The position numbers and the translations under genes were made by a program. The notes under the pieces were generated by a model that saw nothing but the letters and a program-made list of their open reading frames with translations, was not told the DNA's origin and ran no database searches. From contig CACGYL010000006.1 of NCBI GenBank assembly GCA_902577285.1, positions 1 to 50,875 of the forward strand: 50,875 nucleotides of DNA, written 5' to 3'. Positions 27,170-50,875 of this stretch are shown piece by piece. The stretch comes from an uncultured Pelagibacteraceae bacterium (GTDB lineage: Bacteria; Pseudomonadota; Alphaproteobacteria; Pelagibacterales; Pelagibacteraceae). The stretch's first letter is position 1. Every line of letters begins with the position of its first letter.

Positions 27170-27187
27170 TTTCTTTTTGAAATTTAT

Positions 27188-28327: not shown

Positions 28328-28356
28328 TTGTAGCAGAATTTTAATTACTATATAAT

Positions 28357-28375
28357 ATAGATTAAAATAATCTAT
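28357..28375. repeat. Perfect inverted repeat in a divergent intergenic region
   Basis: Eight-base arms ATAGATTA and TAATCTAT are separated by AAA. The repeat lies 29 bases before the start of the GT4 gene and about 117 bases before the divergent epimerase gene. It could be an operator, but AT-rich DNA produces such palindromes by chance. Confidence 0.4.
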
Positions 28376-28492
28376 TAATATTCTTTATAATAAATTGAAA
28401 TTAATAAGATTAGATTATTTAATCAAACTAATATATTAAAACTTAAAAAATAAATTAATCAAATTAATTATAAAAAATATAGAGAAAAAATT

Positions 28493-29467
28493 ATGCAAAA
28501 AATTTTAGTTACTGGAGCAGGTGGTTTTATAGGTGGACATTTAGTAAAACGTCTTATTGAACAAGGTCATGAAGTCAGAGCTGTTGATATAAAAGATTTT
28601 AATGAATGGTATCAACATTATCCTGAGGTAGATAATTTTTGCCTTGATATGTCTATAAAGGAGAACTGTTTTAAAATGACAGAAGGTACAGATGGTGTAA
28701 TAAATATGGCATGTAATATGGGAGGTATGGGATTTATAGAGAACAATAAAGCATTGTGTATGCTATCTGTATTAGTAAACACACACATGCTTATGGCTTG
28801 TAAAGAATTTAATGTAAAAAAATATTTTTTTTCATCAAGTGCATGTGCTTATAATAAAGATTTACAGGATCAACCAACAATATCGGGTTTAAAAGAAAGT
28901 GATGCATACCCCGCTAATCCAGAAGATGGTTATGGATGGGAAAAATTATTCAGTGAAAGAATGTGTAGACATTTTTTAGAAGATTATGGTTTAGATGTAA
29001 AAGTTGCAAGATATCATAATATTTTTGGTCCTAATGGTACGTATGATGGCGGCAGAGAAAAAGCCCCTGCAGCTTTATGTAGAAAAATTATTGAGTCAAT
29101 TTTAGAAAATAAAAATACTATTGATGTTTGGGGGGATGGTAAACAAACTAGATCATTTTTATATATAGATGATTGTGTGGATGCAACTCTCAAACTTTTT
29201 AATTCTGAATTTCATGGTCCTATTAATATTGGAAGTGAGGAAAAAGTCTCAATAAATGAAATGATAAGTAAAATAGAAAAAATATCTAATCAAAAAGTAA
29301 GTAAGAACTATCAATTAGATAAACCAAAAGGTGTTAGAGGAAGAAATAGCGACAATACTTTAATAAGATCTCAGTTAAATTGGGATCCAAAGTATACATT
29401 ATATCAGGGACTAGAGAAAACTTATGATTGGATATTTCAAGAATTGAAAAAAAAACACAATCAATAA
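28493..29467 (+). CDS. GDP-mannose 3,5-epimerase-like SDR
   Basis: This 324-residue protein closely resembles plant and bacterial GDP-mannose 3,5-epimerase. It has GAGGFIG (8-14), NMGGMGFIENN (75-85), SSSACAY with Cys118 (114-120), Y147-x3-K151, RYHNIFGPNGTYDGG (173-187) and REKAPAALCRK (188-198) with Lys190. Cys118 and Lys190 match the acid/base pair of the plant enzyme. WGDGKQTRSFLYIDD and NIGSEE follow. It would make GDP-L-galactose and/or GDP-L-gulose from GDP-mannose. Its motifs are far better conserved than those of most neighbours. A carbamoyltransferase gene follows three bases after the stop. Confidence 0.9.
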   Translation: MQKILVTGAGGFIGGHLVKRLIEQGHEVRAVDIKDFNEWYQHYPEVDNFCLDMSIKENCFKMTEGTDGVINMACNMGGMGFIENNKALCMLSVLVNTHMLMACKEFNVKKYFFSSSACAYNKDLQDQPTISGLKESDAYPANPEDGYGWEKLFSERMCRHFLEDYGLDVKVARYHNIFGPNGTYDGGREKAPAALCRKIIESILENKNTIDVWGDGKQTRSFLYIDDCVDATLKLFNSEFHGPINIGSEEKVSINEMISKIEKISNQKVSKNYQLDKPKGVRGRNSDNTLIRSQLNWDPKYTLYQGLEKTYDWIFQELKKKHNQ

Positions 29468-29470
29468 TTA

Positions 29471-31207: not shown

Positions 31208-31208
31208 T

Positions 31209-33617: not shown

Positions 33618-33646
33618 AATATTCCTAGAGATTTAATATAACTAAG

Positions 33647-34513
33647 TTAAACATTACTCAAGCTAAGTTTTTTGGAAAAAAAAATTATAATAATTTTCAT
33701 TTTTTTGCTTAAAGACATCTTTTTAAATAGGTAAGAAAAGCTCCTGTATTTTTTTTCTTTTAAACATAATTTAGACATTTCATAATAAATATTAGATCTA
33801 AATATTTTGATATTTTCAAAATTTAAAAATTTATTTTTTGTTTTTTTATACCATTTTATAAGTTCTAGAGTATATAACTTAAATTTTTTTTGAGTCTCGT
33901 TATTATCATGAATTAGAACAGTTATTAAAGGTTGCTGAATTCCAAAAATATTATGTTTTAATATTGTTCTCATCACAAAATCAAAATCACCTATACAATG
34001 GTAATTTTCATCAAAATATATGTCAGAAATTAATTTCTTATCAAACATTACTGAGGAAATACTAACAGGATATTTTTTTAAAAAGTTATTAATGACATTT
34101 AAATTATTTATTGATTTTTCAGCCAGTTTAACTTTATTATTTTTGAAATTTTTAAATAAAAAATTGCTATAAACTAATGCAAATTGTTCCTTTTTAATTA
34201 TTTTTAGTTGTTGATTTAACTTTGTTGGTTCCCAAAAATCATCTGTATCTAAAAAACATACATACCTTCCATTACTTTCTTTAATAGCTAAATTTCTAGC
34301 AGTTGAGAGATTAGTTAAGTTATTTGATTTGAAATACTTAAATCTTTTGTCATTAAAATCATTATAAATATTCTCACTACGATCTGTTGAACAATTGTCC
34401 CAAAAAATTACTTCCCAATTTTTATAGGTCTGTTGGATAATACTATTTAAACATTTTTTCAAAAACTTTTCTCCATTATGGCAATTGATAATAATACTTA
34501 TTAGTTCATCCAT
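33647..34513 (-). CDS. GT2 family glycosyltransferase
   Basis: A 288-residue GT-A enzyme: SIIINCHNGEKFL (6-18), the nucleotide-binding D39 in WDNCSTDRS (38-46), the NLSTARNLAI acceptor-side stretch (68-77) and FLDTDDFWEP (87-96) with the DxD metal site. It adds a sugar from a nucleotide donor on the cytoplasmic side. There is no membrane segment. It overlaps the upstream SDR gene by 13 bases. Confidence 0.93.
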   Translation of the reverse strand: MDELISIIINCHNGEKFLKKCLNSIIQQTYKNWEVIFWDNCSTDRSENIYNDFNDKRFKYFKSNNLTNLSTARNLAIKESNGRYVCFLDTDDFWEPTKLNQQLKIIKKEQFALVYSNFLFKNFKNNKVKLAEKSINNLNVINNFLKKYPVSISSVMFDKKLISDIYFDENYHCIGDFDFVMRTILKHNIFGIQQPLITVLIHDNNETQKKFKLYTLELIKWYKKTKNKFLNFENIKIFRSNIYYEMSKLCLKEKKYRSFSYLFKKMSLSKKMKIIIIFFSKKLSLSNV

Positions 34514-35412
34514 ATTTTTTTGTAATATTTAATCGTTTTATTTAAACCTTTATCAAAATTAATTTTAGGTTTCCATTTCAAAATTTTTTTTGCTTTTAAA
34601 ATAGATGGATATAAAACTAAAGGTTCATCTTTTCTCAATTTTAATTTTCCGTAATCTGGCTTACCACCTTTCGTAGATTTACGAATTTTTTCTATTATTT
34701 TTTTTATATTATATTTTTTACCGGATCCGGCATTTATAATCTCGCCCACTGCCCTTCTATTTTCAAGTGCATTAATAATTAAATCTATTAAATCATCAAT
34801 GTATATAAAATCTCGATATTGTCTCCCGTTTGAGCAATCAAATTTTTTATTTTTTAAGCAGGAAACTATTACAATTGGTAACAGCCTGTTAATATCCTGA
34901 TCTGGACCATAAGTTAAATATAATCTTAAGATTGTTACTGGAAGTTTAAATTTCTTGTAAGAATTCATTAGATAATTTGATGCTAAAAATTTTGAAAGAG
35001 AATAAATACTTTTAATTTTAGATTTTGATATAAATGCATCTTCTTTTTGGGGGGATATTGTATCTCCATACTCTAATGAACTACCCATCTGTAAAAATTT
35101 TTTAATTTTACTTTTGAGAAAATGATTTGAAATATTTTTTACCCCTAGGTAATGACTTTGATAAGTTTTCTTTTTTTTAGAATGATCAACATAACCAGCT
35201 AAATTAACTACATATGTATAATTTTTATCAATTCTTGAAATGATTTGATATTTTTTTGATATATCACAATATATATACTTAACTTTTTTTAATCTTTTTT
35301 TTGGTTTAGATGTCGATACAGATGTAACATTCCATTTTAAAGATAAACATTTTTTTGCAAGATTTCTTCCAATAAAGCCTGTTCCTCCAAATATTAATAT
35401 TCTTGTCTTCAA
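34501..35412 (-). CDS. Nucleotide-sugar epimerase/reductase (extended SDR)
   Basis: A 303-residue SDR with GGTGFIG (9-15), VNLAGYVDHSK (69-79), QMGSSLEYGD (108-117), Y137-x3-K141 and YRDFIYIDDLIDLI (about 197-210). It directly follows the genes for glucose-1-phosphate cytidylyltransferase and CDP-glucose 4,6-dehydratase, so it most likely acts on CDP-4-keto-6-deoxyglucose or a product of it, as CDP-abequose or CDP-paratose synthases do. The specific reduction or epimerisation is not readable. Confidence 0.85.
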   Translation of the reverse strand: MKTRILIFGGTGFIGRNLAKKCLSLKWNVTSVSTSKPKKRLKKVKYIYCDISKKYQIISRIDKNYTYVVNLAGYVDHSKKKKTYQSHYLGVKNISNHFLKSKIKKFLQMGSSLEYGDTISPQKEDAFISKSKIKSIYSLSKFLASNYLMNSYKKFKLPVTILRLYLTYGPDQDINRLLPIVIVSCLKNKKFDCSNGRQYRDFIYIDDLIDLIINALENRRAVGEIINAGSGKKYNIKKIIEKIRKSTKGGKPDYGKLKLRKDEPLVLYPSILKAKKILKWKPKINFDKGLNKTIKYYKKIWMN

Positions 35413-36090
35413 TTATTTATCTAGGATTTTTTCGATTAATTGTTTATCACGCTTTGTATCCATGCATTGCCAAAAACCATAGTGCTTAAATGCCATTAAT
35501 TGCTTCTTTTTTGAAAAAATTTCTAGTGGTTCTCTTTCTAAGTATGTTTGATCATTTTTGATATATTTGAATATATCAGGTTCAAAAACAAAAAATCCAC
35601 CGTTTATCCAACCTTCATCTAATTTCGATTTTTCTTTAAAAATTTTTACTTTATTGTGCTTTAATTTTATTGATCCAAACCTTGCTGGTGGTCTGACAGC
35701 TGTCAGTGTAGCAGATTTTTTATGTTTTTTATGAAATTTTAACAATTTTTTAATATTTATATTAGATATTCCATCACCATAAGTTAAAAAAAATCTTTCA
35801 TTTTTTAAATACTTTTTTAATCTTTTTACCCTCCCGCCAGTCATGGTATTTTTTCCTGTATCTATTAAATGGACTTTCCAATTAAAATTTTTTTTTTTAA
35901 AAAATTTTTTAATTACATGTCCTTTATATCCTAATGCAATAAAAAATTCATCAAAACCCATACTACTATAATGCTCCATTATATGAATGAGAATAGGTTT
36001 TTTTTTTATTTTTACCATTGGTTTAGGAATTGTTTTAGTCAATTCTGACATTCTAGTTCCCATACCACCAGCAAGAATTACAACTTTCAT
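35413..36090 (-). CDS. rfbF: Glucose-1-phosphate cytidylyltransferase
   Basis: The 225-residue nucleotidyltransferase has AGGMGTRMSE (7-16), KPMVKI (23-28), GYKGHVIK (54-61), DTGKNTMTGGRVKR (77-90), TYGDGIS (103-109), INGGFFVFEPD and the C-terminal HYGFWQCMDTKRDK. These are the RfbF-specific motifs that distinguish it from UDP- and dTDP-glucose pyrophosphorylases. It makes CDP-glucose from CTP and glucose-1-phosphate. It is about 30 residues shorter than the usual 255 or so, with internal loops trimmed. Its start overlaps the rfbG stop by four bases. Confidence 0.95.
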   Translation of the reverse strand: MKVVILAGGMGTRMSELTKTIPKPMVKIKKKPILIHIMEHYSSMGFDEFFIALGYKGHVIKKFFKKKNFNWKVHLIDTGKNTMTGGRVKRLKKYLKNERFFLTYGDGISNINIKKLLKFHKKHKKSATLTAVRPPARFGSIKLKHNKVKIFKEKSKLDEGWINGGFFVFEPDIFKYIKNDQTYLEREPLEIFSKKKQLMAFKHYGFWQCMDTKRDKQLIEKILDK

Positions 36091-37163
36091 TTTTGTTCTA
36101 CTTTTTTTATATAATCGTTTATTTGTTTAATTGAAAATAAATACATATTTTTTTCTTTTTTATTATATATTTTATACCAATCAGCTACTAATTTTGCACT
36201 TTCATCAATATTTAAAATTGATTTCCATCTTATTTTTTTCTTTGCCTTCGATGAATTTAATTTAAGTAATTTTGACTCAAAAAATTTTCCTTTTTTATTT
36301 ATAATTTTCCATCTAAGCTCAGGAAGATATTTTTTTATTTTATTTAAAAGAAATTCAACATTGTAATTAGAACTCATACTCGGTCCAAAATTAAAAGATT
36401 CACCATGCAATTTATTTTTATAAAGTTTGGATGATAATAATAAGTAACCATAAATAACTTCGATTACATGTTGCCATGGTCTTGTTGATTTTGGGTTCCT
36501 GATAATCAAAGTTCTATTATTTAGATAAGATTTCATAGAATCTGGTACAATTCTATTCGGTGACCAGTCTCCTCCACCAATTACATTTCCAGCTCTGGCA
36601 ATTGCAATATTAATTTTGTTATTACTTTTTAAAAAAAATGATTTTAAATATGACTGAATAACAAATTCTGCTGCTCCTTTCGAAGCACTGTAAGGATCGC
36701 TACCACCAAATATATCTGTTTCTTTATATCCCCTAGAAATCTCTATATTTTTATAACTTTTATCGCTAGTTATAATTACTACAGAAATTTTTTTTTTAAG
36801 ATTTCTTAAAGATTCAAGAATATTCAATGTTCCAATTGTATTTGTGTTCCATGTCTCTAATGGATTTTCAAAAGATTTTTTAACAATAGATTGGGCCGCT
36901 AAATGAAAAATAAAATCTGGTTTAAAGGTTTTAATAATTTTTGAAACTTTTTTATAGTCGCAGATATCAATATATTTTTGTGAAATTTTACTTTTTAGAT
37001 TTAAAATTTCATAGTTTGAAGGATTTGTTGGAACATTTTTTGAAATGCCTAATACTTTTGCACCATTTATTGTAAGCCATAAACAAAGCCAGGATCCCTT
37101 AAAGCCAGTGTTTCCAGTCACTAAAACTTTTCTATTTTTAAAAACTTGAAAATTATTAATCAT
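36087..37163 (-). CDS. rfbG: CDP-glucose 4,6-dehydratase
   Basis: This 358-residue extended SDR has GNTGFKGSWL (17-26), FHLAAQSIV (86-94), ITSDKSYKN (131-139), FGGSDPYSASKGAAE (152-166) with Y158 and K162, and RAGNVIGGGDWS. The KGSWL and GGGDW elements identify RfbG rather than RmlB. It converts CDP-glucose to CDP-4-keto-6-deoxyglucose, the entry to CDP-linked 6-deoxy and 3,6-dideoxy sugars. It sits immediately before rfbF in the operon. No RfbH (3-dehydratase) gene lies in the window. Confidence 0.95.
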   Translation of the reverse strand: MINNFQVFKNRKVLVTGNTGFKGSWLCLWLTINGAKVLGISKNVPTNPSNYEILNLKSKISQKYIDICDYKKVSKIIKTFKPDFIFHLAAQSIVKKSFENPLETWNTNTIGTLNILESLRNLKKKISVVIITSDKSYKNIEISRGYKETDIFGGSDPYSASKGAAEFVIQSYLKSFFLKSNNKINIAIARAGNVIGGGDWSPNRIVPDSMKSYLNNRTLIIRNPKSTRPWQHVIEVIYGYLLLSSKLYKNKLHGESFNFGPSMSSNYNVEFLLNKIKKYLPELRWKIINKKGKFFESKLLKLNSSKAKKKIRWKSILNIDESAKLVADWYKIYNKKEKNMYLFSIKQINDYIKKVEQK

Positions 37164-40239: not shown

Positions 40240-41241
40240 TTATACTTGTTCTCTATTATTATACTCTGTTAGTATAAAATCCTCACCTGTTCCTAACATA
40301 TTATATAACTTATGATTTTTATCATTAGTCCATACTACGGCTTCGGGATCGTCATACAAAAAATCACAATCTTTACAGTAATCAATTTTATCAAAATCTT
40401 TATTTTCATGTGCTTTTCTCAATTTCTCATACTCTTCACCAAAATAAATATCTTCAAATGAATTCTTATCTAGGTGACCCAAAATACTTTTTTCTTCATT
40501 TGGTGGACCTAATGTTTGACAACATGGGACAATAGCACCAGTTCTACCAAGAGAACCTCCTGCTCTTACTGTTAGCTCAGGTGCAAATGGTCTACCACAA
40601 CTTCTTCGTGCAGTTTTTTCTCTTGGATTAATATTATCATGATTACCACTCCAATTATGCATTTTCCAAATATAAGCAATACTCTCTACCACATTAATTA
40701 CATTTTTTTTATAACTTTCAATTTCTTGATTTATTTTAGAGTTATCTGTAATTAAATGATAAGTACTTATTTGTGTTTTTGCGCTAGTGCTTTTAACGTA
40801 CGATTGAATTTCAGTTAAGTTCGAAAGAATTAAATTAAAATTATCAATATTCATCCATTTTTTGTACAACTCTCTATTATATCCAATAACGCTAAACCTA
40901 ATAAAATCTATACCAGCATTTACGACATCCTTCATAAACTGACCATTTAATCTAGCACCATTACAGTACATAAAACATTTTAAATTTCTTTTTTTTACAG
41001 CTTCGATATACTTTGGAAGATCTTTTGCCATAGTTGGTTCTCCACTACCCTCCAAGTTTATTTGTGGCATCCCATATTTAGGTACAATTTGATCTAAAAT
41101 TCTCTCAAATTCAGAAATTGGCATTTTTCTTGTAAAGCTTTTTCCTCTTCCTGGATTCGTTTGGGGGCACATTTGACAAGTGTAATTACAACCTCCAAAT
41201 ACTTCCATAACTATTCTTTTTAATTCAATTTTATTTTCCAT
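40240..41241 (-). CDS. Radical SAM protein with SPASM-like C-terminus
   Basis: A 333-residue protein with the cluster motif C18-x3-C22-x2-C25 (GCNYTCQMCP), INLEGSGEPTMA (51-62) as the SAM-binding GGE-like region, and a cysteine-rich C-terminal part. That part comprises RRSCGRPF, a CC pair around 240 and YCKDCDF, suggesting auxiliary iron-sulfur clusters. Such enzymes carry out radical-based changes such as epimerisation, dehydrogenation or thioether formation. It is first in the - strand operon and preceded by a possible promoter. Motif conservation is markedly better than in its neighbours. Confidence 0.9.
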   Translation of the reverse strand: MENKIELKRIVMEVFGGCNYTCQMCPQTNPGRGKSFTRKMPISEFERILDQIVPKYGMPQINLEGSGEPTMAKDLPKYIEAVKKRNLKCFMYCNGARLNGQFMKDVVNAGIDFIRFSVIGYNRELYKKWMNIDNFNLILSNLTEIQSYVKSTSAKTQISTYHLITDNSKINQEIESYKKNVINVVESIAYIWKMHNWSGNHDNINPREKTARRSCGRPFAPELTVRAGGSLGRTGAIVPCCQTLGPPNEEKSILGHLDKNSFEDIYFGEEYEKLRKAHENKDFDKIDYCKDCDFLYDDPEAVVWTNDKNHKLYNMLGTGEDFILTEYNNREQV

Positions 41242-41366: not shown

Positions 41367-41993
41367 ATGCATCATAGAATTATCGATAATTTTTTAAGTG
41401 ATGACTTATTTGATTACTTGTGTACATTAAAATTAAATAAAGTAGAAAATAATCAAATCTTTAATCATCATAACAAAATTTCAAAAGATGGTTCTACTGA
41501 AACATCCTGTATATCTGTGGAAAAACTAAAAAAACTAAATTTGGAGTGTCACGATAAAACTATAAATTTACTTAAAGAACTTAGTCCAGAAAAGGCTAAA
41601 CTTTATGATTATTCAGATTTTAACATAATCGAGACTGGTAAAGATTATACTTTTCCGATTCACCGTGATCATATCAATAAATTACTAAGTGGAGTAATTT
41701 ATTTATATCCTGAGAAAAATTTAGGAACAATTCTTTACGATAATAAGAATGGTGAAAATCCAATTGAAATAGATTGGAAACAAAATAGAGGTTTTTTTTT
41801 TAGTAGGAATGAAAATTCCACTTGGCACAGCTATAAAGGTAATGGAAAACAAAATAGGATAGTTTTAGTCTATAATCTTATGACTAATAATACTAAGCTT
41901 GCATGTAAAATAGAGGGTTTAAATTATAATTTTGTTAAGATTAGAGAAGCAGTCAATCCATATTTATATAGATTTTTCAAAAAGTATATATAG
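41367..41993 (+). CDS. 2-oxoglutarate/Fe(II)-dependent oxygenase-like protein
   Basis: This 208-residue protein has the facial-triad pattern of 2OG-Fe(II) oxygenases: H99-R-D101 in PIHRDHINK and H154 in TWHSYKG. Arg164 ten residues later, in NRIVLVYN, is a probable 2-oxoglutarate anchor. The LSGVIYLYP and GTILYD strands fit the jelly-roll fold (prolyl-4-hydroxylase-like). It may hydroxylate a sugar, lipid or protein side chain. The gene diverges from the radical SAM gene and is coupled with no gap to the FkbM gene that follows. Confidence 0.82.
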   Translation: MHHRIIDNFLSDDLFDYLCTLKLNKVENNQIFNHHNKISKDGSTETSCISVEKLKKLNLECHDKTINLLKELSPEKAKLYDYSDFNIIETGKDYTFPIHRDHINKLLSGVIYLYPEKNLGTILYDNKNGENPIEIDWKQNRGFFFSRNENSTWHSYKGNGKQNRIVLVYNLMTNNTKLACKIEGLNYNFVKIREAVNPYLYRFFKKYI

Positions 41994-42864: not shown

Positions 42865-44577
42865 TTAGCTAAATATATTGTTGTTCAGATTTTCTTGATC
42901 CCACAAGATATTATTATTTATAATTATTTTATTTTTTAAGATTTTTTTTAATTCTGAAGCCAAATTATCCTTATTTGCATAAATTATACTCATTTGATCT
43001 AATGGAAAATTAATGTGCTTATAGTTTTTATATTTTGAAAAAATCATGACCTGTTTATTTAAACATAAAGTTTCTTCTATTGATGTAGAGGAAAAACTTA
43101 TTAAACACTTAGCAAGCTTTAGATCATCAAAAAAACTTTTATTATTTGATATATGCACATGCTTATTTTTTTTAAGTTCAATCAATTTAATGAAAGTTTT
43201 TAAATCACATTCAGGGCCTTCACGAAATCTAATTATAAGTTTTATTTTTTTAAATTTAGCAGTTTCATAAATAATAGTTTTTAAATTTTCTACATATTCA
43301 GAATAGTTTTCGTATATCCATGGCCATTTATTAAGTGATTTTGGAGTGCTCGCATGTAGAAAAGTAAATTCGTCCTTTGGATATTTACTTATTAGTTTAT
43401 TTTTACCGTACAAAATTGGTGAGGATTTATAAATTTTTGTGTCATTTTGGAAGTATTTAATTGCGTTAAATGAAATTTTAGACTGAGATACTACATGACT
43501 TGCTAAGTTTGAAAATATTAATCCTCTTCCACAAATCTTTAATACAAAATCAGAGATTTCACTATCAGGCTCAGATACCGAGCCATGCGGCACAAGAATT
43601 ACATCAATATTTTTTTGTTTACATAAATTTGCTAAAACTGTTGCAACACCAAAGCGTAATTGGTCGACGAAAACTTTATCTAATGAGCTCTTGTTAATTA
43701 ATTTTTCAATTGAATTTTTTATTTTTGTTTGTCTAACGCAATAATCTTTGAGAATTTTAAATATAATATCTTTAAAAATATCAATATTATTATCTTTAAA
43801 ACTGAAAACAAAATTCTTTAGTTTATCATTAATTATGTTGCTTGTTAAATAATTTTCTTCAGGAAAAAAAATAAATTTTTTGTTTTTTTTTAAAATATTA
43901 AAATACGTGAAAAAATTTGAAATTATATGATAAAATTTAAAATCATTTATCACCTTTATTTCAAATATACTTTTGCCTTTAGAGAAAAGTTTTACTTTTT
44001 TTGATAACAATGATCCAACAACAATAATTTTTTTTTTTGAATTAGAATAACAAAATAAATTATTTAATTTTATTAAATAACTTTTAATTAAAGAAATTGA
44101 CTTTGGTTTTACATACTGAAAAAAACCTTGATTTTTTTTTTCTATTATTTTTTGGATAAGTTGGTAAGAAAAATCGTTTAAATTATCAAATTTTTTAATC
44201 TTATTATTTTTTATTAAGCAAAAGTTCTTAAATTTTTTAATATTTTCAACTAAATATATAAAAGAAAAAATAGATACAAAAAAAATATTATGAATATTCT
44301 CAATGAGACCTTCATCAATACCATTTAGTTTATTTTCATTATTTTCAAATTCTTTATAAATTTTTTTTGCTGATATAATTATTTCTTGCTGTATTTTTAA
44401 ATTCTCAATTTCATCAAAACCGTAAATTTGATACTTATCTTTATTAATTAAAATTTTTTCTAGACCAGGTGAAAATAAGTATATTTTTTTGACCTGATTT
44501 TTTTCTATTTTATTAAGTTCTTCAACATCATCTTTATCATAAAGAACCAAAATGTATTCTTTCTCTGATATATTCAT
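42865..44577 (-). CDS. GT-B-like protein, putative surface carbohydrate transferase
   Basis: A 570-residue protein of two soluble domains. The N-terminal half is not recognised. The C-terminal half has DVILVPHGSVSEPDSE (about 325-340), EFTFLHASTPKS, LIIRFREGPECD and CLISFSSTSIEETL (about 500-513). This is the layout of GT-B transferases of the capsule/polysialyltransferase kind, where a P-H-G-S loop and a final S-S-T/S-E site bind the nucleotide. It is the last gene of the 50875-42865 run, six bases after the formyltransferase gene. Confidence 0.6.
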   Translation of the reverse strand: MNISEKEYILVLYDKDDVEELNKIEKNQVKKIYLFSPGLEKILINKDKYQIYGFDEIENLKIQQEIIISAKKIYKEFENNENKLNGIDEGLIENIHNIFFVSIFSFIYLVENIKKFKNFCLIKNNKIKKFDNLNDFSYQLIQKIIEKKNQGFFQYVKPKSISLIKSYLIKLNNLFCYSNSKKKIIVVGSLLSKKVKLFSKGKSIFEIKVINDFKFYHIISNFFTYFNILKKNKKFIFFPEENYLTSNIINDKLKNFVFSFKDNNIDIFKDIIFKILKDYCVRQTKIKNSIEKLINKSSLDKVFVDQLRFGVATVLANLCKQKNIDVILVPHGSVSEPDSEISDFVLKICGRGLIFSNLASHVVSQSKISFNAIKYFQNDTKIYKSSPILYGKNKLISKYPKDEFTFLHASTPKSLNKWPWIYENYSEYVENLKTIIYETAKFKKIKLIIRFREGPECDLKTFIKLIELKKNKHVHISNNKSFFDDLKLAKCLISFSSTSIEETLCLNKQVMIFSKYKNYKHINFPLDQMSIIYANKDNLASELKKILKNKIIINNNILWDQENLNNNIFS

Positions 44578-44583
44578 AATAAT

Positions 44584-45390
44584 TTACTTAAGTGTTATTA
44601 TTTTAATTTTTTTTTTATTTTTACAATATTTTCTTATTATTCCATCTTTAATCAAATTATTTACTTTTAAGACTGTATCTTTCGAAAAATCTTTATTAAA
44701 AAATATTTTTTTATTTTTTGTTTTAATGATCTTTCCTTTATAATTTGGATTTTTTATTAAAAATTTTATAGATTTAATTGCTAATTTAGCTCCTAAAATT
44801 GCATTTTTACAACCTATAGAATGTGTATTGTCATCTTTAATAAATAATGATTGTTTTTGGGTAATTATATTACCGTCATCAATTTTTTTGTTAACAAAAT
44901 GAATAGAGACACCCGTGTACTCTAATTCCTGATTATAAAAAGTCCATACGTTGCAACCTGTTCCCTTATAATAAGGTAATAATCCAGCGTGAATATTTAT
45001 TATTTTATTTTTAAAATTATGTAGAAAGTTTTCCTTTAATATGGATGTTGCATTAACAATTATCAATTTAGGATCATATTCTTTTATTTTTTCTATCGTT
45101 TTAAGAGAATTAATATTTCTTTTCGTGAGTTGAAATAAAGTTTTTTTTTTTAATAAATAATTATTATTTCTACAATAATTTTTAAAATATTTTTTTTCAT
45201 GTTTTATTACATTATTAAAATGATTCCTTAATATTATTGAATTTTTTTTACTATACTTTTTTAAAATGTTTCTGGGATATTTCTCAAAAATAATATTTGA
45301 ATTTTCAAATTCTTTGAGAATTCTAATAGCAACATACTTATGCTTTAACAAATCCCCACTGATTATTAATACTTTATTTTTTTTTTTCAA
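44584..45390 (-). CDS. Formyltransferase (methionyl-tRNA-formyltransferase-like, sugar N-formyltransferase candidate)
   Basis: This 268-residue protein has the formyltransferase core INIHAGLLPYYKG (131-143), with catalytic N132 and H134, and the loop VNKKIDDGNII (166-176), with D171 as the third catalytic residue. It lacks the C-terminal domain of tRNA formyltransferases, so it is more like the enzymes that N-formylate amino sugars using formyl-tetrahydrofolate. It sits beside an aminotransferase gene that could provide the amino group. Confidence 0.88.
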   Translation of the reverse strand: MKKKNKVLIISGDLLKHKYVAIRILKEFENSNIIFEKYPRNILKKYSKKNSIILRNHFNNVIKHEKKYFKNYCRNNNYLLKKKTLFQLTKRNINSLKTIEKIKEYDPKLIIVNATSILKENFLHNFKNKIINIHAGLLPYYKGTGCNVWTFYNQELEYTGVSIHFVNKKIDDGNIITQKQSLFIKDDNTHSIGCKNAILGAKLAIKSIKFLIKNPNYKGKIIKTKNKKIFFNKDFSKDTVLKVNNLIKDGIIRKYCKNKKKIKIITLK

Positions 45391-45413
45391 ATCTTTATAA
45401 TTAATTTTTATTA

Positions 45414-46445
45414 CTAGAATTTTATATTAAAATTTTTCGAAATTATTAGAAATTCTTTCATTAATTCTTTGTCAATCGGTATTCCTTCTTTTTTTCTTTG
45501 TTTTGAAACAATTACTTCTTTATCATTTGGTAATAAAATTTTATCATTTTTGTTTTTTTTTGTTTCTTTCAGCTGCTTATATATTTTTTCAAAATTCTCA
45601 AAAAAATATTTCTTAGAAACAAAAGTATCAGTTTTTATTATAATATATAATTGCCCAAGTTTTCTAGGTTTTCTCATTGAGGTGGTAAACATAGAAGGTA
45701 TGTTTGTTCCAAATTTCATACCTAAAAAAACTGAACACATTATTTCTATCATTGCAGCCAATCCAAAACCTTTATAACTTCCAATTGGAAACAAACTTTT
45801 AGCTTTATGTGGATTTTCGGTTGGATTTCCAAATTTATCTGCAGCATAAAATTCTGGTAATTTTTTTTTAAATTTTCTATGATTTAAGAGTTTGTTCCAA
45901 GAAATATTTGTAGTTGCCATGTCTAAACAAAATGGTTCTTTTTTTAATCTTGGCGCAACGAAACAAATTGGATTGGTTCCGAAAAAGGGTTTACGTCCTT
46001 TATGTGTTAACATTAAAGAGTCGGCGTGCGCGAATCCAAGACCTATATAACCTTTTTGTGCAGCTTTTAACATAATGCTTGCTATCGATCCTGGATGACT
46101 TGAGTTCTTAACTCCAATCATGCATATACCATTTTTTTTTGCAAATTTAATAGCCTTATCAATTGCTAAACAACCTGCAGCAATACCATACCCATTATCA
46201 GCGTCTAATAAAAATGAACTTATATTTTTTTTGTAAAATTTAAATTTCGGCTTTATGTTCTTTCTACCTAAAAGACCTGAATTTACATAATGAGGCAATA
46301 ATTTTATACCATGAGAATCTACTCCTCTAAGAGAAGCTAAGCAAAGACCTTTGCTCACAGTTTTTGCGCTGTAAGTATCAAGTTTAATTTTTTTAAATAC
46401 TTTGAAAGAGAAATCTAATAATTTTTTGTATTTTATTTTTTTCAT
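45414..46445 (-). CDS. Ldh-type NAD(P)-dependent 2-hydroxyacid dehydrogenase (malate/sulfolactate dehydrogenase family)
   Basis: The 343-residue protein belongs to the YlbC/ComC/MDH2 family, unrelated to classical lactate dehydrogenase. It has RGVDSHGI (40-47), VKNSSHPGS (112-120) with the conserved His, FGTNPI (155-160), LDMATTNISW and GSYKGFGLAAMIEIMC. Family members interconvert a 2-hydroxyacid and a 2-oxoacid (malate, sulfolactate, ureidoglycolate and others). The ATG overlaps the upstream stop as ATGA. Such a gene is unusual within a polysaccharide locus. Confidence 0.9.
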   Translation of the reverse strand: MKKIKYKKLLDFSFKVFKKIKLDTYSAKTVSKGLCLASLRGVDSHGIKLLPHYVNSGLLGRKNIKPKFKFYKKNISSFLLDADNGYGIAAGCLAIDKAIKFAKKNGICMIGVKNSSHPGSIASIMLKAAQKGYIGLGFAHADSLMLTHKGRKPFFGTNPICFVAPRLKKEPFCLDMATTNISWNKLLNHRKFKKKLPEFYAADKFGNPTENPHKAKSLFPIGSYKGFGLAAMIEIMCSVFLGMKFGTNIPSMFTTSMRKPRKLGQLYIIIKTDTFVSKKYFFENFEKIYKQLKETKKNKNDKILLPNDKEVIVSKQRKKEGIPIDKELMKEFLIISKNFNIKF

Positions 46446-47512
46446 GTTTTAACTAATTTTTTTACAAATTTTGCGATAGATAAACAAGAAGTCAAACCAG
46501 GTGACTCTATTCCAAATAGATTGATCCAATTATATTTAGGCATTTTTTTTATATAAAAATCCTCATTTTTGTTTTTAATACTATTAAAAATTTTTGGTCT
46601 GTATCCAACCTTATAATAATATATTTCATTAAATTTTAAATTAGGGAGATATTTTATTATTTCGTTAAAAAAAACAATTTTAAGTTTTTTTTTATTAATC
46701 TTTTTGCTAATTTGAACGTTTGGTCCAAATATATAATTTCCATCAATAGTTGGGGTTATATCTATTCTCTCTTTAACTATCCCTGGAATCATAGATTTAT
46801 AAATTATTTTATTAAGTCCAAGTTTTTGTTTAGTTTTAAAATAAACTCCTTTTACAAAATTATCTTTAGGGAAAAAACTATTAGGAAATGTTTTTTTTGC
46901 TATTGATATTGAGTTCATTCCTGCACAATTTATGATAAAATCGATATTCAAATTATTTATATTAATTTCAAATTTATTTTTTTTTTTTTTAAATTTCACA
47001 TTTTTTACATTAAATATAAATTTTACTCTATTTTTTATGCACAGCTGATACAAAGTTTTTATAAATTTACTACTATCAAAAATTCCAGAAGATGGTGAGA
47101 ATAGTCCCTTTGAGCAAATTAAATTAGGTTCAATTCTTCTTACATCTTTTTTATTTAAAATTTTAACATCTCTTACTTTGTTAAAAATAGCATTAGATTT
47201 AATTTTTTTTAAATAATTTTCTTCATCTTTATTTTGAGCAACAAATATTTTTCCAATTTTTTTGTGTTTTATTTTATATTTCTTGCAAAATTTATAAATT
47301 AATTTTTTACCCTCAATACAGAGTTTATTTTTGAGAGAATTTCTTTTGTAATAAACGCCAGAGTGAATTACTTCAGAGTTTTTTGAAGAATTTTCTAGTC
47401 CAATATTTTTATTTTTTTCAATAATATAAATATTATTTTTCTTTATTTTTGAAAGCTCATAAGCAGTAGAAATTCCAACTACACCTGCACCAATAATTAA
47501 AATATTAGTCAT
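46442..47512 (-). CDS. FAD-dependent 2-hydroxyacid oxidase (LhgO/L2HGDH-like)
   Basis: A 356-residue DAO-fold protein with GAGVVG (8-13), then EVIHSGVYYKRNSLKNKLCIEG, in parts at about 47-68, and CKKYKIKHKKIGKIFVA. RRIEPNL and SPSSGIFDSSKF are characteristic of L-2-hydroxyglutarate oxidase-like flavoenzymes. A C-terminal GIESPGLTSCLSIAKFV follows. It would oxidise a 2-hydroxyacid to the 2-oxoacid. Its start overlaps the aminotransferase stop by one base (TAATG). Co-occurrence with an Ldh-type dehydrogenase suggests both act on one hydroxy/oxo-acid couple. Confidence 0.88.
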   Translation of the reverse strand: MTNILIIGAGVVGISTAYELSKIKKNNIYIIEKNKNIGLENSSKNSEVIHSGVYYKRNSLKNKLCIEGKKLIYKFCKKYKIKHKKIGKIFVAQNKDEENYLKKIKSNAIFNKVRDVKILNKKDVRRIEPNLICSKGLFSPSSGIFDSSKFIKTLYQLCIKNRVKFIFNVKNVKFKKKKNKFEININNLNIDFIINCAGMNSISIAKKTFPNSFFPKDNFVKGVYFKTKQKLGLNKIIYKSMIPGIVKERIDITPTIDGNYIFGPNVQISKKINKKKLKIVFFNEIIKYLPNLKFNEIYYYKVGYRPKIFNSIKNKNEDFYIKKMPKYNWINLFGIESPGLTSCLSIAKFVKKLVKT

Positions 47513-48576
47513 TAGATTAATTTGATAAATATTTTTACAAATTTTTTCATTTCAGGTTTTGGACAGCCAGTTACCAAAATTCCATTTCTAAATTGTCCAT
47601 TAAAACTATATCTTGTTGCAATTTTATTATCCTTTAAACCCTTGTAAACTTTGTAAGCTTTTTTTGGATTTTTAAAATTTATAAATATAAAATTCCCGTT
47701 TTCACCTCCAAAATATCCTAATTTAAGAAGATCCAATTTATATTTTAAATAATCCATCCCAGACTTAGTATCTTTAATATATTTTTTATTAATATTATTA
47801 TTTTCAATTACAAACTCTAACATTTTAGCTGATAAAATATTAGTTTCATAACCACCTTTTGTGTTTTTTAAAATATTTATATTTTTTTTATTTGATATTA
47901 AACACCCTATTCTCGCACCTGCTAGTCCATAAGATTTTGAGAAGGATCTCATTATCACAACATTATTAAAAATATTTACTAATTTTTTAAATGTTATATT
48001 TCCAAAAGGAAAATAAACCTCATCGATTGCAAACAAAATTTTTTTTAAATAAAGCTTTTTAGCAATATTTCGTACTATATTATAATCAACAGTACCTTCT
48101 ACAGGTATATTTGGAACTGGAAGGAACACAACCTTAGTTTTTTTATTTATAAGCTTTAAAATTTGAAAGTGATCAAGTTCAAAATTTTTTGAATAATTAA
48201 AAGTTTTAATTTTAATACCATATAGTTTTGAGTAAATTTCATATAAGGCAAAAGTAGGTTTAGGTATTATTATTTCAGAGTTTTTGTCTAAATCTAATGA
48301 ATCTAATATATTTTTAATTCCTCCAGATACTCCCTCTGTTAGTAATAATTTATCAGATTTTATACCCAGAAATTTTGATAATTTTTCATAAGTGTTTTTT
48401 AAATTTGGATAAAAATTAATATTTATTTTGTTTAACTTATTAATAAGCTTTTTTTTTTGTAAAATATTAAATCCTCTAATATTTTCATTTCTATCTAAGT
48501 TTAGAATAAACTGAGATCTACTTTCGTAATTATCTTTTCTTTTGAATGCAGAAAGTGTTTTTTTAAATTTAATCAA
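47512..48576 (-). CDS. Class I/II PLP aminotransferase (HisC-like)
   Basis: The 354-residue protein follows the histidinol-phosphate aminotransferase fold: NLDRNEN (26-32), P-N-I-P (155-158, a variant of the usual N-P-N-N-P), IDEVYFPFG (184-192), the PLP lysine K214 in SFSKSYGLAGARIG (211-224) with R222. It would transfer an amino group to a 2-oxoacid or keto group. A second copy of the histidine-pathway enzyme is not expected here, so a specialised role in the surrounding operon is more likely. Confidence 0.9.
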   Translation of the reverse strand: MIKFKKTLSAFKRKDNYESRSQFILNLDRNENIRGFNILQKKKLINKLNKININFYPNLKNTYEKLSKFLGIKSDKLLLTEGVSGGIKNILDSLDLDKNSEIIIPKPTFALYEIYSKLYGIKIKTFNYSKNFELDHFQILKLINKKTKVVFLPVPNIPVEGTVDYNIVRNIAKKLYLKKILFAIDEVYFPFGNITFKKLVNIFNNVVIMRSFSKSYGLAGARIGCLISNKKNINILKNTKGGYETNILSAKMLEFVIENNNINKKYIKDTKSGMDYLKYKLDLLKLGYFGGENGNFIFINFKNPKKAYKVYKGLKDNKIATRYSFNGQFRNGILVTGCPKPEMKKFVKIFIKLI

Positions 48577-48577
48577 A

Positions 48578-49264
48578 TTATTTAAAATATTTTATTTTAT
48601 CTTTTCGTTTATTTATAATTGCAGACACAATATGAAGGTCTAATTTATTTTTAACTATTAAGCCAGATAGCCTACTAACATTGTAAAATCCGACTTTGCC
48701 ATGAAGAATTGTTCCTTTTTTTTCCTTGTAAGCTTTTATAAAGCTTTTCGATTTCCACATCATTAAAGAGTAAACCATTAAGTCTATAGGCGTTAAATCT
48801 TGAGTTTTAGAAAATTTATCTCCTTTTTTGAAGTTTATCGGTTTGTTATTTATAATACCGTGATACTTAAATTCATTAGCAGTAATCAAACTATTGTAAT
48901 CTCTTTTTTTAAAAAAATTTACAACTTTTTGAATTTCAATTGCTGTTTGCAGTGGTGCAATTGAATTCACCCAAACTAGAATATCACAATCAAAATTATT
49001 CAAAAAATTAAAGACTATATCATCAGATTTTGTATTAGAAGATCCAAGGTGCTTGGGTCTTAAATAAAATTCAACTTTATATTTTTTTGCAACTTTGCCA
49101 AATATTTTGTCATCTGAATTTATATATATTTTGTCAAAAATTTTTGATTTTTTTGCAGCGTTAATAGCATAATAAACTAATGGTTTATTATTAATCAATG
49201 CTAAATTTTTTTTTTTTAATCTTTGACTACCAATTCTTGCTGGTATCATAGCTATAATTTTCAT
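48578..49264 (-). CDS. CMP-sugar synthetase-like cytidylyltransferase (NeuA family)
   Basis: This 228-residue protein begins IAMIPARIGSQRLKKKNL (4-21), the R-x-G-S-x-R-x-x-x-K nucleotide loop of CMP-sialic acid, CMP-KDO and related cytidylyltransferases. VNSIAPLQTA (98-107) replaces the family's L-x-P-T-S-P-L, and IDLMVYSLMMW follows. It activates an acid or sugar as the CMP derivative. No NeuB or NeuC gene for nonulosonic acid synthesis is in the window, so the substrate is open. It abuts the acyltransferase and aminotransferase genes. Confidence 0.85.
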   Translation of the reverse strand: MKIIAMIPARIGSQRLKKKNLALINNKPLVYYAINAAKKSKIFDKIYINSDDKIFGKVAKKYKVEFYLRPKHLGSSNTKSDDIVFNFLNNFDCDILVWVNSIAPLQTAIEIQKVVNFFKKRDYNSLITANEFKYHGIINNKPINFKKGDKFSKTQDLTPIDLMVYSLMMWKSKSFIKAYKEKKGTILHGKVGFYNVSRLSGLIVKNKLDLHIVSAIINKRKDKIKYFK

Positions 49265-49776
49265 TATTGTCTTTCCTTTACTACTTTACAAGGAACGCCT
49301 GCTGCTATTACATTTGGAGGTATATTTTTATTTACAAGAGATTGTGCGCCTATTATGGAATTTTCTCCAATCACAACCCCTTTCAAAATAGTTGCACCAG
49401 CTCCTATCCATACATTATCTTTAATGGTAATTTTATCAATTTCAATACCTTGGTCTTTTATTGCAACATCATTATTCTTAAAGACATGATCACTAGTTAA
49501 TATTTTAACGTGGTTAGCAATTGCAACATCATTTCCTATTTCTATCTCTCCTTGACCATCTAAGTAACAAAATTGATGAATGGAAACTCTTTTACCTAAG
49601 CTAACCTTATCGGGATTTGAAATCACTACACTTTCAAGAATATTGCATTTTTCTCCAATACCTTTCATTAGTGATTTGTATAGAATATATCTCAATTTAA
49701 TAGATATATTAAAAGGAGAGTATCTTATTATTAAAATAATTTTTCTTAATATCTTGAGATAAAAGTTTGCTACCAT
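49264..49776 (-). CDS. Hexapeptide-repeat acyltransferase
   Basis: A 170-residue left-handed beta-helix protein. Hexapeptide turns run from about residue 50 to 155, including KVSLGKRVSIHQF, IEIGNDVAIANHVKIL, DHVF with the catalytic-type His near 96, ITIKDNVWIGAGATIL and GVPCKVVKE at the end. It matches maltose/galactoside acetyltransferase-like enzymes that use acetyl-CoA. It could O- or N-acylate the product of this operon. The start lies three bases after the preceding gene. Confidence 0.92.
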   Translation of the reverse strand: MVANFYLKILRKIILIIRYSPFNISIKLRYILYKSLMKGIGEKCNILESVVISNPDKVSLGKRVSIHQFCYLDGQGEIEIGNDVAIANHVKILTSDHVFKNNDVAIKDQGIEIDKITIKDNVWIGAGATILKGVVIGENSIIGAQSLVNKNIPPNVIAAGVPCKVVKERQ

Positions 49777-49779
49777 ATT

Positions 49780-50875
49780 CTATAAATTATTTAAAAAATT
49801 CATTACTCTTTGATTTGTTTTGCCATCTCTATATTTATCAAAATTACCAATAATATTTGTCCAGCTTCCTAAATTATTTTTTTTGTTTTTGAAGTCATTT
49901 TCTATGCTTTTCCATAAGTTATTCCAATCTCTAAAAACAATATTTAGTCCATCTCTTTCAAATTGGTTTTTTTTTGAATTATAATAATCAAAGTAAACAG
50001 ATTTAGTTCCATTTAATGCAGACTCTACACCTGCTGTACCCGCTAACAACATATCATGAATAGTAATATCACATATCATGGCAATTTTTGCAGGTATATC
50101 TTTGAAATTTTTTACATGATCCTTATCATTCTCATCAAAAATTAAAAATCTACCAGTTTGCTTTGCTTTTTCAATTAAATGATAATCATCTCCAAGTTTT
50201 TGTTTTAAAAGCTTAGGTTTTTTTGGCTTTATAATTAGTGCATAATTTTGATTATTTAAAATTTTTTCAATAAGAAAAATATAACTTTTTTTTGAAATAC
50301 CATGGTTTAAATAGTTAAATAAATCATTATCATTTGATCCTTGATCAAACAAACCAATTATGTATTTAGCCTCTGTTTTAAGTATTTTATCTCTTAAAAG
50401 TTGTGATTCTAGTTTAAAATTTTTAAATTTATAATCTAACATATAGCCAAGATGTTTTATTTGTTTAAGGTTAGAATATTTTTTGGATTTATAATTAGAA
50501 TTATTGAAACTAATAAAATAATCAAAAGCGTCAATATTTTGAAATGCACTGTAATTCTCTGAATAAGAGTAAGTTACACCAATAGAAGATCCTCCAAGAT
50601 CATGAATTGCTCCAATAGCGCTAGAGGTAAAATCTTGGGCAATATGGCATGAGTAAAATTTTTCAACTTTATATTTTTCAAAAAAATTTTTATAAACTTC
50701 CTTTTCAAAAGAAAATTTAACATACAACATTTTTAAAATATTATAATTATTGAATTTATTTTTTTTTAAAATATTAATTAACAATGACTTAATTGACTCA
50801 AAATTAACAAAATTATAAATATAAAATATATTTTCTTTGTTAATTTTTTCGTTACTTATAAAAACTGCATTCTCA
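49780..50875 (-). CDS. GT-B-like protein (5' end beyond the window)
   Basis: The frame ending at 49780 stays open up to the right edge at 50875, so the gene continues outside. An internal TTG at 50784 is therefore probably not the start. The visible part of about 365 residues has FYSCHIAQDFTSSAIGAI, GSSIGVTYSYSENYSAF, ALIIKPKKPKLL and DITIHDMLLAGTAGVESALNGTKSVYFDYY near the end. This is the C-terminal nucleotide-binding half of a GT-B protein, of the same broad type as 38853-40235 and 42865-44577. The function is likely glycosyl or related transfer, with the substrate unknown. Confidence 0.6.
   Translation of the reverse strand, partial: ENAVFISNEKINKENIFYIYNFVNFESIKSLLINILKKNKFNNYNILKMLYVKFSFEKEVYKNFFEKYKVEKFYSCHIAQDFTSSAIGAIHDLGGSSIGVTYSYSENYSAFQNIDAFDYFISFNNSNYKSKKYSNLKQIKHLGYMLDYKFKNFKLESQLLRDKILKTEAKYIIGLFDQGSNDNDLFNYLNHGISKKSYIFLIEKILNNQNYALIIKPKKPKLLKQKLGDDYHLIEKAKQTGRFLIFDENDKDHVKNFKDIPAKIAMICDITIHDMLLAGTAGVESALNGTKSVYFDYYNSKKNQFERDGLNIVFRDWNNLWKSIENDFKNKKNNLGSWTNIIGNFDKYRDGKTNQRVMNFLNNL

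Follow-up and report, generated by a model that had tools for sequence, protein, structure and literature searches.

The operon in the window

The window, i.e. the whole stretch of 50,875 nucleotides analysed here, is contig C6 of SAR11 (Pelagibacterales) genome G000, which is 58% complete. Eight genes, all on the minus strand, occupy positions 42865-50874. Read from the 50874 end leftward, they are separated by 3, -1, 1, -1, -4, 23 and 6 nt, so that the tight operon (gaps of -4 to +23 nt) described in a sequence-only reading of this DNA is real. The enzyme families are also much as that reading claimed, with Pfam matches over cut-off for six of the eight products.

The operon opens with the 3' part of a gene for a glycosyltransferase-like protein (49780..50874), open at the contig end. 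Its product shares 54% identity with residues 233-575 of a protein of 584 aa encoded at the same place in genome G212; the 5' part of the gene is probably to be found on contig C5, at the right end (C5:59374-59730). The last gene (42865..44577) codes for a putative GT-B-like transferase of 570 aa, whose 48-49% identical orthologue ends the operon in G212; the predicted fold of the window copy has pLDDT of 37. No Pfam or NCBIfam family matches either of these operon-end proteins at E 0.001, and the "GT-B-like" label derives solely from a weak, below-cut-off Epimerase_2 match of the G212 copy (24.5 bits).

Between them lies the biosynthetic part. A WbbJ/WcaF-type hexapeptide O-acyltransferase (49264..49776) matches Pfam Hexapep over cut-off (51.2 bits) and NCBIfam WcaF below it (88 of 192 bits). 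It is followed by the cytidylyltransferase, here termed NeuA2 (48578..49264; PF02348), and a HisC-like PLP aminotransferase (47512..48576; Aminotran_1_2 96.1 bits, over cut-off) that stays below the NCBIfam hisC cut-off (169.8 against 276.55 bits). In the profile alignment, its Leu334 takes the place of an Arg common to three HisC structures; we take the Arg of this C-terminal R-I-(S/T) motif to be a functional residue of HisC. The PLP lysine of the SFSK motif is kept. The next product, an LhgO/GlpO-like FAD-dependent hydroxyacid oxidase (46442..47512; DAO 160.3 bits, over cut-off), resembles LhgO and type-2 glycerol-3-phosphate oxidase over its whole length, but misses both curated cut-offs widely (190.8 against 299 bits and 179.9 against 460 bits, respectively); it also matches a solved glycerophosphate oxidase structure. 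The Ldh_2-type NAD(P)-dependent 2-hydroxyacid dehydrogenase of malate/ureidoglycolate/sulfolactate type (45414..46445) matches PF02615 with 305.9 bits (cut-off 38.8) and reaches no specific equivalog cut-off. The same holds for the N-formyltransferase (44584..45390; PF00551 66.2 bits, cut-off 26.1), which shares the Formyl_trans_N domain with sugar N-formyltransferases such as PseJ, TDP-3-aminoquinovose formyltransferase, ArnA and WlaRD. Solved structures that match it include sugar N-formyltransferases, and PseJ structures 6ci2 and 6ci4 rank among the best.

Two genes to the left have copies adjoining the G212 operon: that for a 208-aa protein without family match (41367..41993, plus strand; copy 64% identical), possibly outside the operon, and that for a radical SAM/SPASM protein (40240..41241, minus strand; copy 85% identical).

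NeuA2 is a separate branch of NeuA-like enzymes

The window cytidylyltransferase matches CTP_transf_3 with 78.4 bits (Pfam cut-off 22.6). Its best NCBIfam match, PseF, stays below cut-off (79.8 against 205.7 bits), which says little because the canonical NeuA encoded beside NeuB in G000 misses it too (83.4 bits). NeuA2 forms one side of a branch with 44 rows (SH-aLRT 97). The first motif count and tree were made without eight rows, namely seven that have no NeuB close by and L146, whose frame is broken; repetition with the seven restored gave the same result (SH-aLRT 98). No description of the branch or of its gene set was found in literature titles or abstract openings, a coverage outside which most subscription journals lie.

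Residues R10, K19, N20 and R69, assigned to CTP binding, are present in 44/44 NeuA2 rows; the CTP-binding residues of CSS are given as R12, K21, N22 and R71 in PMC6580227. PMC2901514 reports, from docking and mutation, that R165 of CSS binds the sialate carboxylate. As Arg occupies the exact R165 column in only 12/34 other rows, most of which read R-S-Q, Arg was scored instead at either of the two positions preceding the Q166 column. Such Arg occurs in 0/44 NeuA2 rows and in 40/41 other NeuA-like rows; in the window member, neither of the two residues ahead of Q155 is Arg. All 44 NeuA2 rows carry Trp170, part of a different acceptor motif. Judged by these residues, NeuA2 has kept the CTP site while the sialate-binding motif is replaced. 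With Arg gone from the whole branch, either an acid acceptor must be bound differently or the acceptor is something other than an acid.

The metal site differs as well. Asp209 and Asp211, needed in the meningococcal enzyme (PMC2901514), are replaced in the window member by I203 and K205; catalysis by the window branch itself is therefore unproven. Among NeuA2 rows, D-x-D is kept in 19/44 and Lys stands for D211 in 23/44, including the window and Roseobacter members. An IspD-like reading of the K205 site was rejected, as the spacing does not fit the IspD motif as generally known.

The AlphaFold model of the window NeuA2 (pLDDT 95.6) is nearest to CMP-NulO synthetase folds (Z 27.2 for 6ifd, 27.0 for 9t4z, 26.6 for 1eyr), and its matches at Z ~27 include CMP-NeuAc/CMP-Kdn synthetases. 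NeuA folds score ~23-27 and most KdsB folds 19-23. KdsB/KpsU (CMP-Kdo synthetase) thus share superfamily and fold with NeuA2, but NeuA is closer. With CMP-nonulosonate synthetases (NeuA/CSS, PseF, CMP-Kdn synthetase) NeuA2 has in common the fold, the CTP P-loop, the cytosine-binding residues, PF02348 and the glycan-island setting; it differs from them in the acceptor and metal residues described above and in gene neighbourhood (see below).

Sister operons and the surface-glycan island in SAR11

The core NeuA2-HisC-LhgO-Ldh_2 was found in the same order in three genomes of one genus, i.e. the window, G212 and G572, so that the conservation survey proposed by the sequence-only reading adds two genomes to the first. 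Between window and G212 the four proteins are 52-65% identical (LhgO 59-60%, Ldh_2 65%). Adjoining HisC and LhgO were seen beside NeuA2 in these three genomes only. At order level, 43/46 genomes with an LhgO match fall far short of the three orthologues in score, and by score alone their matches were classed as ordinary LhgO. LhgO of alphaproteobacteria G854 and G880 was rejected as ordinary too, with no such HisC, Ldh_2 or NeuA2 seen adjoining by eye.

The acyltransferases and the Gfo/Idh dehydrogenase vary among the three operons. Both sisters carry Gfo/Idh; the window operon contains neither Gfo/Idh nor a phosphatase, and the best matches to sister Gfo/Idh elsewhere in G000, at 58% completeness, are 27-28% identical. 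The N-acyl enzyme is swapped as well: the formyltransferase of the window is replaced in G212 and G572 by a NeuD-like acyltransferase and a GT2 fusion, the NeuD-like product scoring in G212 134.8 bits, below the family cut-off of 160.8. The scheme first put forward for this DNA, in which a 2-hydroxyacid is oxidised, aminated, N-formylated, activated with CTP and attached to the surface, thus lacked the Gfo/Idh of the sisters, and its formyltransferase is peculiar to the window among the three operons.

NeuB (PF03102) has no match in the window. The sole match of the G000 assembly lies on contig C5 (TIGR03569 443.8 bits, over cut-off), probably ~12 kb upstream of the NeuA2 operon. Absence of a neighbouring neuB, as originally claimed, therefore holds for the window but not for the island: in both G000 (distance by synteny) and G212, NeuB lies ~10-12 kb from NeuA2, accompanied by a canonical NeuA of its own. 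This speaks against the sequence-only reading, which had named a neuB/neuC pair next to the operon as a refuting finding.

NeuA2 neighbourhoods beyond SAR11

Gene neighbourhoods were compared at the best 80 of 553 confirmed matches of one genome scan, and frequencies describe that sample. L124 and L125, low-scoring and with canonical motif, were grouped with the others, which gives 41 NeuA2 loci and 39 others (initially 43 and 37).

With a 28-row NeuB profile, NeuB was found within 5 kb of 1/41 NeuA2 and 29/39 other genes (best 80 of 553). The single case, in L107, is a NeuB-like frame of divergent sequence at 4.8 kb from NeuA2; a weaker two-protein search at 50 bits gave 0/41 (best 80 of 553).

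Queries for the remaining neighbours (dehydrogenase, SIS, IMPase) were drawn from NeuA2 loci, so that the following contrasts are biased towards NeuA2. Gfo/Idh lies within 10 kb of 29/41 NeuA2 genes and of 1/39 others (best 80 of 553). A 2-hydroxyacid dehydrogenase accompanies 27/41 NeuA2 loci, also well outside SAR11 and in support of the initial interpretation, and 1/39 others; 14/41 NeuA2 loci have none (best 80 of 553). Ldh_2 occurs at 5 loci and D-2-hydroxyacid dehydrogenase at 22, never both (best 80 of 553), which fits mutual substitution. An inositol-monophosphatase-type phosphatase is present at 19/41 NeuA2 loci, including Roseobacter members, and at 0/39 others (best 80 of 553), in keeping with NeuA2 acting on a free acid.

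A compact version occurs in Roseobacter-type genomes without NeuB match; on a Leisingera plasmid it consists of six independently annotated genes. Among 72,556 plasmid records, 3 match the window NeuA2 at 1e-10, and 6 records match a Roseobacter member at 1e-15. Phages gave no NeuA2 match; in viral contigs, scanned with a single NeuA2 protein, none of six pattern matches was confirmed.

Proposed pathway and alternatives

We consider there to be about an even chance that the operon belongs to a SAR11 surface-glycan island and serves to produce an N-acylated amino sugar acid (or short hydroxy/amino acid), to activate it and to attach it. Dehydrogenases (Gfo/Idh and Ldh_2, the latter replaced in other lineages by D-2-hydroxyacid dehydrogenase) would bring the carbon skeleton to the level of a 2-keto/2-hydroxy acid, in place of PEP condensation of NeuB type. 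In the window, G212 and G572, LhgO may oxidise a hydroxyl and the HisC-like enzyme aminate the resulting ketone; the amine would receive a formyl group in the window and, through the NeuD-like enzyme, an acetyl group in G212 and G572. NeuA2 would join the acid to CTP, yielding a CMP-acid for attachment by the GT-like proteins, with O-acetylation by the WbbJ-like enzyme. Product identity and step order are inferred. Weighing against this scheme are the lost Arg and metal Asp residues, the lack of Gfo/Idh and phosphatase in the window operon, the occurrence of HisC-LhgO beside NeuA2 in three genomes only, the 14/41 NeuA2 loci with no 2-hydroxyacid dehydrogenase (best 80 of 553), the below-cut-off score of the NeuD-like product of G212, and NeuB, which lies in the SAR11 islands and in 31/41 NeuA2 genomes (best 80 of 553). 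The initial interpretation is partly supported: besides its enzyme families and tight operon, its proposal of a hydroxy/keto-acid unit that is N-acylated and activated with CTP, with no dedicated nonulosonic-acid synthase among the operon genes, agrees with the data.

More tentatively, the SAR11 operon can be viewed as the amino, N-formylated variant of a possible NeuB-independent route to CMP-activated sugar acids across many phyla. From an ordinary sugar phosphate, isomerase, Gfo/Idh and 2-hydroxyacid dehydrogenase would produce a 2-keto-aldonic acid, and NeuA2 would couple this to CMP, as a donor for glycosylation of flagellin or the cell surface.

If NeuA2 instead worked like IspD or TarI, joining CTP to a phosphate monoester, the unit would be CDP-linked. 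Oxidation of a glycerol-3-phosphate-like compound and amination would then give a serinol-phosphate-like acceptor, N-formylated and transferred as phospho-substituent. HisC-like enzymes act on acetol phosphates, the curated models nearest to LhgO include type-2 glycerol-3-phosphate oxidase (a solved glycerophosphate oxidase structure matches too), the SAR11 operons have no phosphatase, both metal Asp residues are lost in the window branch, and IspD/TarI folds score Z ~20. NeuA and most KdsB folds, however, score higher; the phosphatase adjoins 19/41 NeuA2 genes (best 80 of 553), Lys-bearing Roseobacter members included; the HisC-like enzyme has lost the conserved Arg; and Ldh_2 would have no obvious role. 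We regard this reading as unlikely.

It is also rather improbable that NeuA2 activates the neuraminic- or legionaminic-type product of the island NeuB after its oxidation, amination and formylation by the operon. This would agree with NeuB in the same island (G000, by synteny, and G212), with the PseJ-like formyltransferase and with some NeuB in 31/41 NeuA2 genomes; yet a canonical NeuA lies near NeuB in both islands, 10/41 NeuA2 genomes have no NeuB match (both counts from the best 80 of 553), and sialate-recognition positions are replaced in 44/44 NeuA2 rows.

Chance adjacency of unrelated surface-glycan genes, with no single product, is very improbable. Surface-glycan islands are often mosaic, and the differing acyltransferases and Gfo/Idh could reflect this, but start/stop overlaps of 1-4 nt and a core order kept in three genomes at 52-65% identity (window against G212) argue otherwise.

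Hardly any weight is left for a phosphonate coat, in which operon enzymes would process 3-phosphonopyruvate/phosphonolactate, activated as CMP-phosphonate: TIGR02320, the PEP mutase model, has matches above cut-off in 0/3 SAR11 genomes with NeuA2 (G000, 58% complete, G212 and G073) and in 4/41 NeuA2 genomes (best 80 of 553), and this version of the original proposal is not borne out. CMP activation is common among phosphonate pathways (PMC8976061), and this logic is shared by the cytidylyltransferases Fom1 CyTase, PhpF and FrbH; the Ldh_2 family includes sulfolactate dehydrogenase, an isostere case. Nevertheless, G212, ~90% complete, is without any PEP mutase match. Those of G000 (100 bits) and G073 (116 bits) are far below the cut-off of 319.6, as in several control genomes, and the sole G000 match lies on contig C7, away from C5/C6. 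In the four genomes over cut-off (L101, L107, L111, L120), PEP mutase is on another contig in L101 and L120 and ~47 kb from NeuA2 in L107.

Significance

To our knowledge, the known CMP-donor sugar acids (sialic, legionaminic, pseudaminic, Kdo) are all built by condensation of PEP with a sugar. If the proposed route is true, a broad NeuA2 branch, mostly without NeuB and with dehydrogenases, would represent a second way to make CMP donors, and NeuA matches in genomes would have to be read differently as signs of sialic-acid-like sugars. A direct test is possible in Roseobacter-type genomes, where the version is compact and NeuB has no match. For SAR11, among the most abundant marine bacteria, the genes would be candidates for strain-variable surface chemistry, which may bear on recognition by phages and predators.

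Organization and conservation of the operon

The operon (42865-50874, minus strand) ends the window, which comprises all 50,875 bases of contig C6 from a SAR11 genome (G000; 933 kb in 44 contigs, completeness rated 58%). Leftwards from the contig end it encodes a cut glycosyltransferase-like protein, a WbbJ-like acyltransferase, a NeuA-like cytidylyltransferase (48578-49264), HisC-like and LhgO-like proteins, Ldh_2, a formyltransferase and a 570-aa GT-B-like protein. Intergenic gaps along these eight genes are 3, -1, 1, -1, -4, 23 and 6 nt. Family assignments bear out the enzyme families named in the sequence-only reading, and the operon finding is real. All eight proteins fall short of every specific NCBIfam equivalog cut-off; each is thus a distant or new family member, or belongs to no family.

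Co-conservation of the gene set, proposed earlier as a check, was confirmed by a survey of SAR11 genomes. Genes for the cytidylyltransferase, HisC, LhgO and Ldh_2 occur in identical order in all three genomes concerned, G000, G212 and G572. The LhgO-like gene was found in 2 of 399 genomes of the genus sample (G000 itself and G212), and the order sample (n=297) adds G572. Core proteins of the window and G212 are 52-65% identical. Both sister operons contain a Gfo/Idh gene between LhgO and Ldh_2, as well as a NeuD-like acyltransferase gene and a fusion that joins a family-2 glycosyltransferase to a degenerate cytidylyltransferase domain; families of these extra genes were assigned from the G212 copies. 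The window formyltransferase occupies the place of the fusion and the NeuD-like gene, a difference that may represent a swap of the N-acyl group on an amine that the HisC-like enzyme would make.

Two further genes stand beside the operon in both the window genome and G212, encoding a radical SAM/SPASM protein (40240-41241; 85% identical) and a 208-aa protein without a family assignment (41367-41993). The rest of the surface-glycan region (26180-37163) contains glycosyltransferases, epimerase/dehydratases, a carbamoyltransferase (29471-31207), an 802-aa protein with a spermine-synthase-like domain (31209-33617) and a nucleotidyltransferase (35413-36090).

A branch of NeuA-like cytidylyltransferases

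An alignment of four sequences was used to scan one genome each of 84,980 species for NeuA-like loci. The best 80 of 553 loci fall into two groups, 41 termed NeuA2 (L084-L123 and L126) and 39 others. The 41 loci, together with the window, G572 and G073 proteins, fall together on one side of a branch (44 rows), designated the CYTIDYLYLTRANSFERASE branch (NeuA2). With these best 80 loci its SH-aLRT support is 97, or 98 when all usable rows are included; the groups had originally been separated by score against the window protein, so the tree tests that split and is no independent discovery of it. The finding is stronger than first stated in that it covers a whole cytidylyltransferase branch, of which no description was found in the literature searched. 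At 1e-40, the NeuA2 profile matches 4 of 399 genus genomes, strongly in G000, G212 and G073 and weakly in G225. The module is rare in SAR11.

With NeuA2 rows taken from the best 80 of 553 loci plus the window, G572 and G073, CTP-binding residues R10, K19, N20 and R69 are intact in all 44. In the meningococcal enzyme, docking places R165 in a salt bridge to the sialate carboxylate and activity requires this residue (PMC2901514). Arginine at most two residues before the Q166 column was found in 0/44 NeuA2 rows versus 40/41 others (the exact R165 column holds Arg in 12/34 of the others, mostly as R-S-Q). Tyr179 is replaced by Met or Thr in NeuA2, and every row has Trp at window position 170. The Asp211 column keeps Asp in 19 of the 44 rows and has Lys in 23, including the window, and Ser in two. 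PMC2901514 also gives meningococcal D209A as inactive and a 15,000-fold lower kcat for D211A, so the mechanism of the window protein must differ at least in part. The best structural matches of its confidently predicted fold (pLDDT 95.6) are CMP-NeuAc and CMP-Kdn synthetases (Z up to 27), ahead of KdsB (about 19-23) and IspD/TarI (about 20). In L116 (9965-11131), NeuA2 is fused to a cupin domain; NeuA2 frames of L104, L106, L107 and L110 are similar in length to this fusion and longer than NeuA2 alone.

Gene neighbourhoods of NeuA2

All counts here refer to the best 80 of 553 loci. NeuB lies within 5 kb of 1/41 NeuA2 loci versus 29/39 others, and within 10 kb of 6/41 versus 31/39. The single closer case is L107, where a divergent NeuB-like protein (4182-5231), 4.8 kb from NeuA2, adjoins a second, ordinary NeuB. 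Anywhere in the genome, NeuB (PF03102) is present in 31 of the 41 NeuA2 genomes; no match was found in the searched contigs of ten, which include strain-named Phaeobacter, Tritonibacter and Ciceribacter.

Other genes within 10 kb separate the groups in the opposite direction. This is true for Gfo/Idh (29/41 NeuA2 loci versus 1/39 others), 2-hydroxyacid dehydrogenases (27/41 versus 1/39), SIS-type proteins (25/41 versus 1/39), inositol-monophosphatase-type phosphatases (19/41 versus 0/39), DHQ-synthase-like proteins (9/41 versus 0/39) and HMGL-type aldolase-like proteins (3/41 versus 0/39). The dehydrogenase is D-type at 22 loci and Ldh_2 at five, never both. Of the 14 NeuA2 loci where none was found, some are on short contigs and some have a DHQ-synthase-like or aldolase-like protein instead. 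The glycosyltransferase fusion, possibly a CMP-donor-binding transferase, is present at 5/41 NeuA2 loci, one being G212.

On an independently annotated 93-kb plasmid of Leisingera aquaemixtae, genes for Gfo/Idh, methyltransferase, SIS, inositol monophosphatase, NeuA2 and "phosphoglycerate dehydrogenase" are consecutive. Such a compact set on a plasmid suggests that the module may move between strains.

Several further proteins were observed near NeuA2. Those resembling 4-hydroxy-2-oxovalerate aldolase (HMGL) occur in L089 (6393-8171, fused to a weak MptE/DUF115-type domain), L117 and L118, and possibly represent a NeuB-free aldolase route to a 3-deoxy-2-keto acid. The glycosyltransferase fusion adjoins NeuA2 at L044:12186-13535 and L078:820-2172. 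A protein of about 350 aa whose N-terminus by eye resembles a P-loop (GxxGxGKT) is encoded upstream of NeuA2 at L101:6012-7073, L102:8170-9216 and L107:8866-9906.

Genes to the right of the operon

Another G000 contig, C5, probably continues the window. Its right end (C5:59374-59730) encodes an N-terminus matching residues 3-111 of a 584-aa G212 orthologue (32%, E 1e-12; BLAST, 39-protein set), and the window right end (49780-50874) aligns with residues 233-575 of that orthologue (54%). The short piece gave no phmmer match and the contig ends do not overlap, so the link draws on BLAST and gene order. With G212 gene order in support, the junction of C5 and C6 probably falls within a single glycosyltransferase-like gene.

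Outward from the gap, C5 first carries WbuZ/AglZ-, HisH- and WbuX-type genes, an acetamidino/amidation module (C5:56870-59380); genes that look similar, judged by cluster and by eye, are close to NeuA2 in L088, L101 and L102. Next come two proteins that match no NCBIfam family at 1e-10, then a PseC-like aminotransferase, a pair of NeuD-like or similar genes and NeuB (TIGR03569 over cut-off). Beyond NeuB are, among others, an SDR-like gene, canonical NeuA and a Gfo/Idh-like gene, the SDR-like and Gfo/Idh-like genes being named by eye and similarity to G212. In G212, NeuB, NeuA and NeuA2 lie at 152.1, 156.3 and 162.6 kb.

The sequence-only reading had proposed checking the genes beyond 50875 for PEP mutase, NeuB or similar. 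On this probable continuation NeuB is present. PEP mutase was not found there, which leaves the suggested phosphonate product weaker than first stated.

Proposed route

That an isomerase-type protein, Gfo/Idh, a 2-hydroxyacid dehydrogenase, a phosphatase and a CMP-synthetase-like enzyme keep recurring together suggests a route in which dehydrogenases make a CMP-sugar acid. Oxidation of a sugar phosphate at both C1 and C2 would give a 2-keto-aldonic acid; after dephosphorylation and coupling to CMP, the product would be a CMP-sugar acid formed without PEP condensation. Within the lineage of the window, Ldh_2 would take the dehydrogenase role, LhgO and the HisC-like enzyme would form an oxidise-then-aminate pair, and N-formylation would follow amination.

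The main rival is a CDP-type product. Room for it is left by the missing carboxylate arginine of NeuA2, Lys at Asp211 in the window protein, the lost Arg of the HisC-like enzyme (Leu334 in its place), the absence of a phosphatase from the window operon and that of Gfo/Idh from G000 (best match 27-28%). For these reasons it is retained, though we consider it unlikely. Taken more boldly, the dehydrogenase-based scheme would make NeuA2 part of a NeuB-independent route to CMP-sugar acids, a reading that we put forward tentatively.
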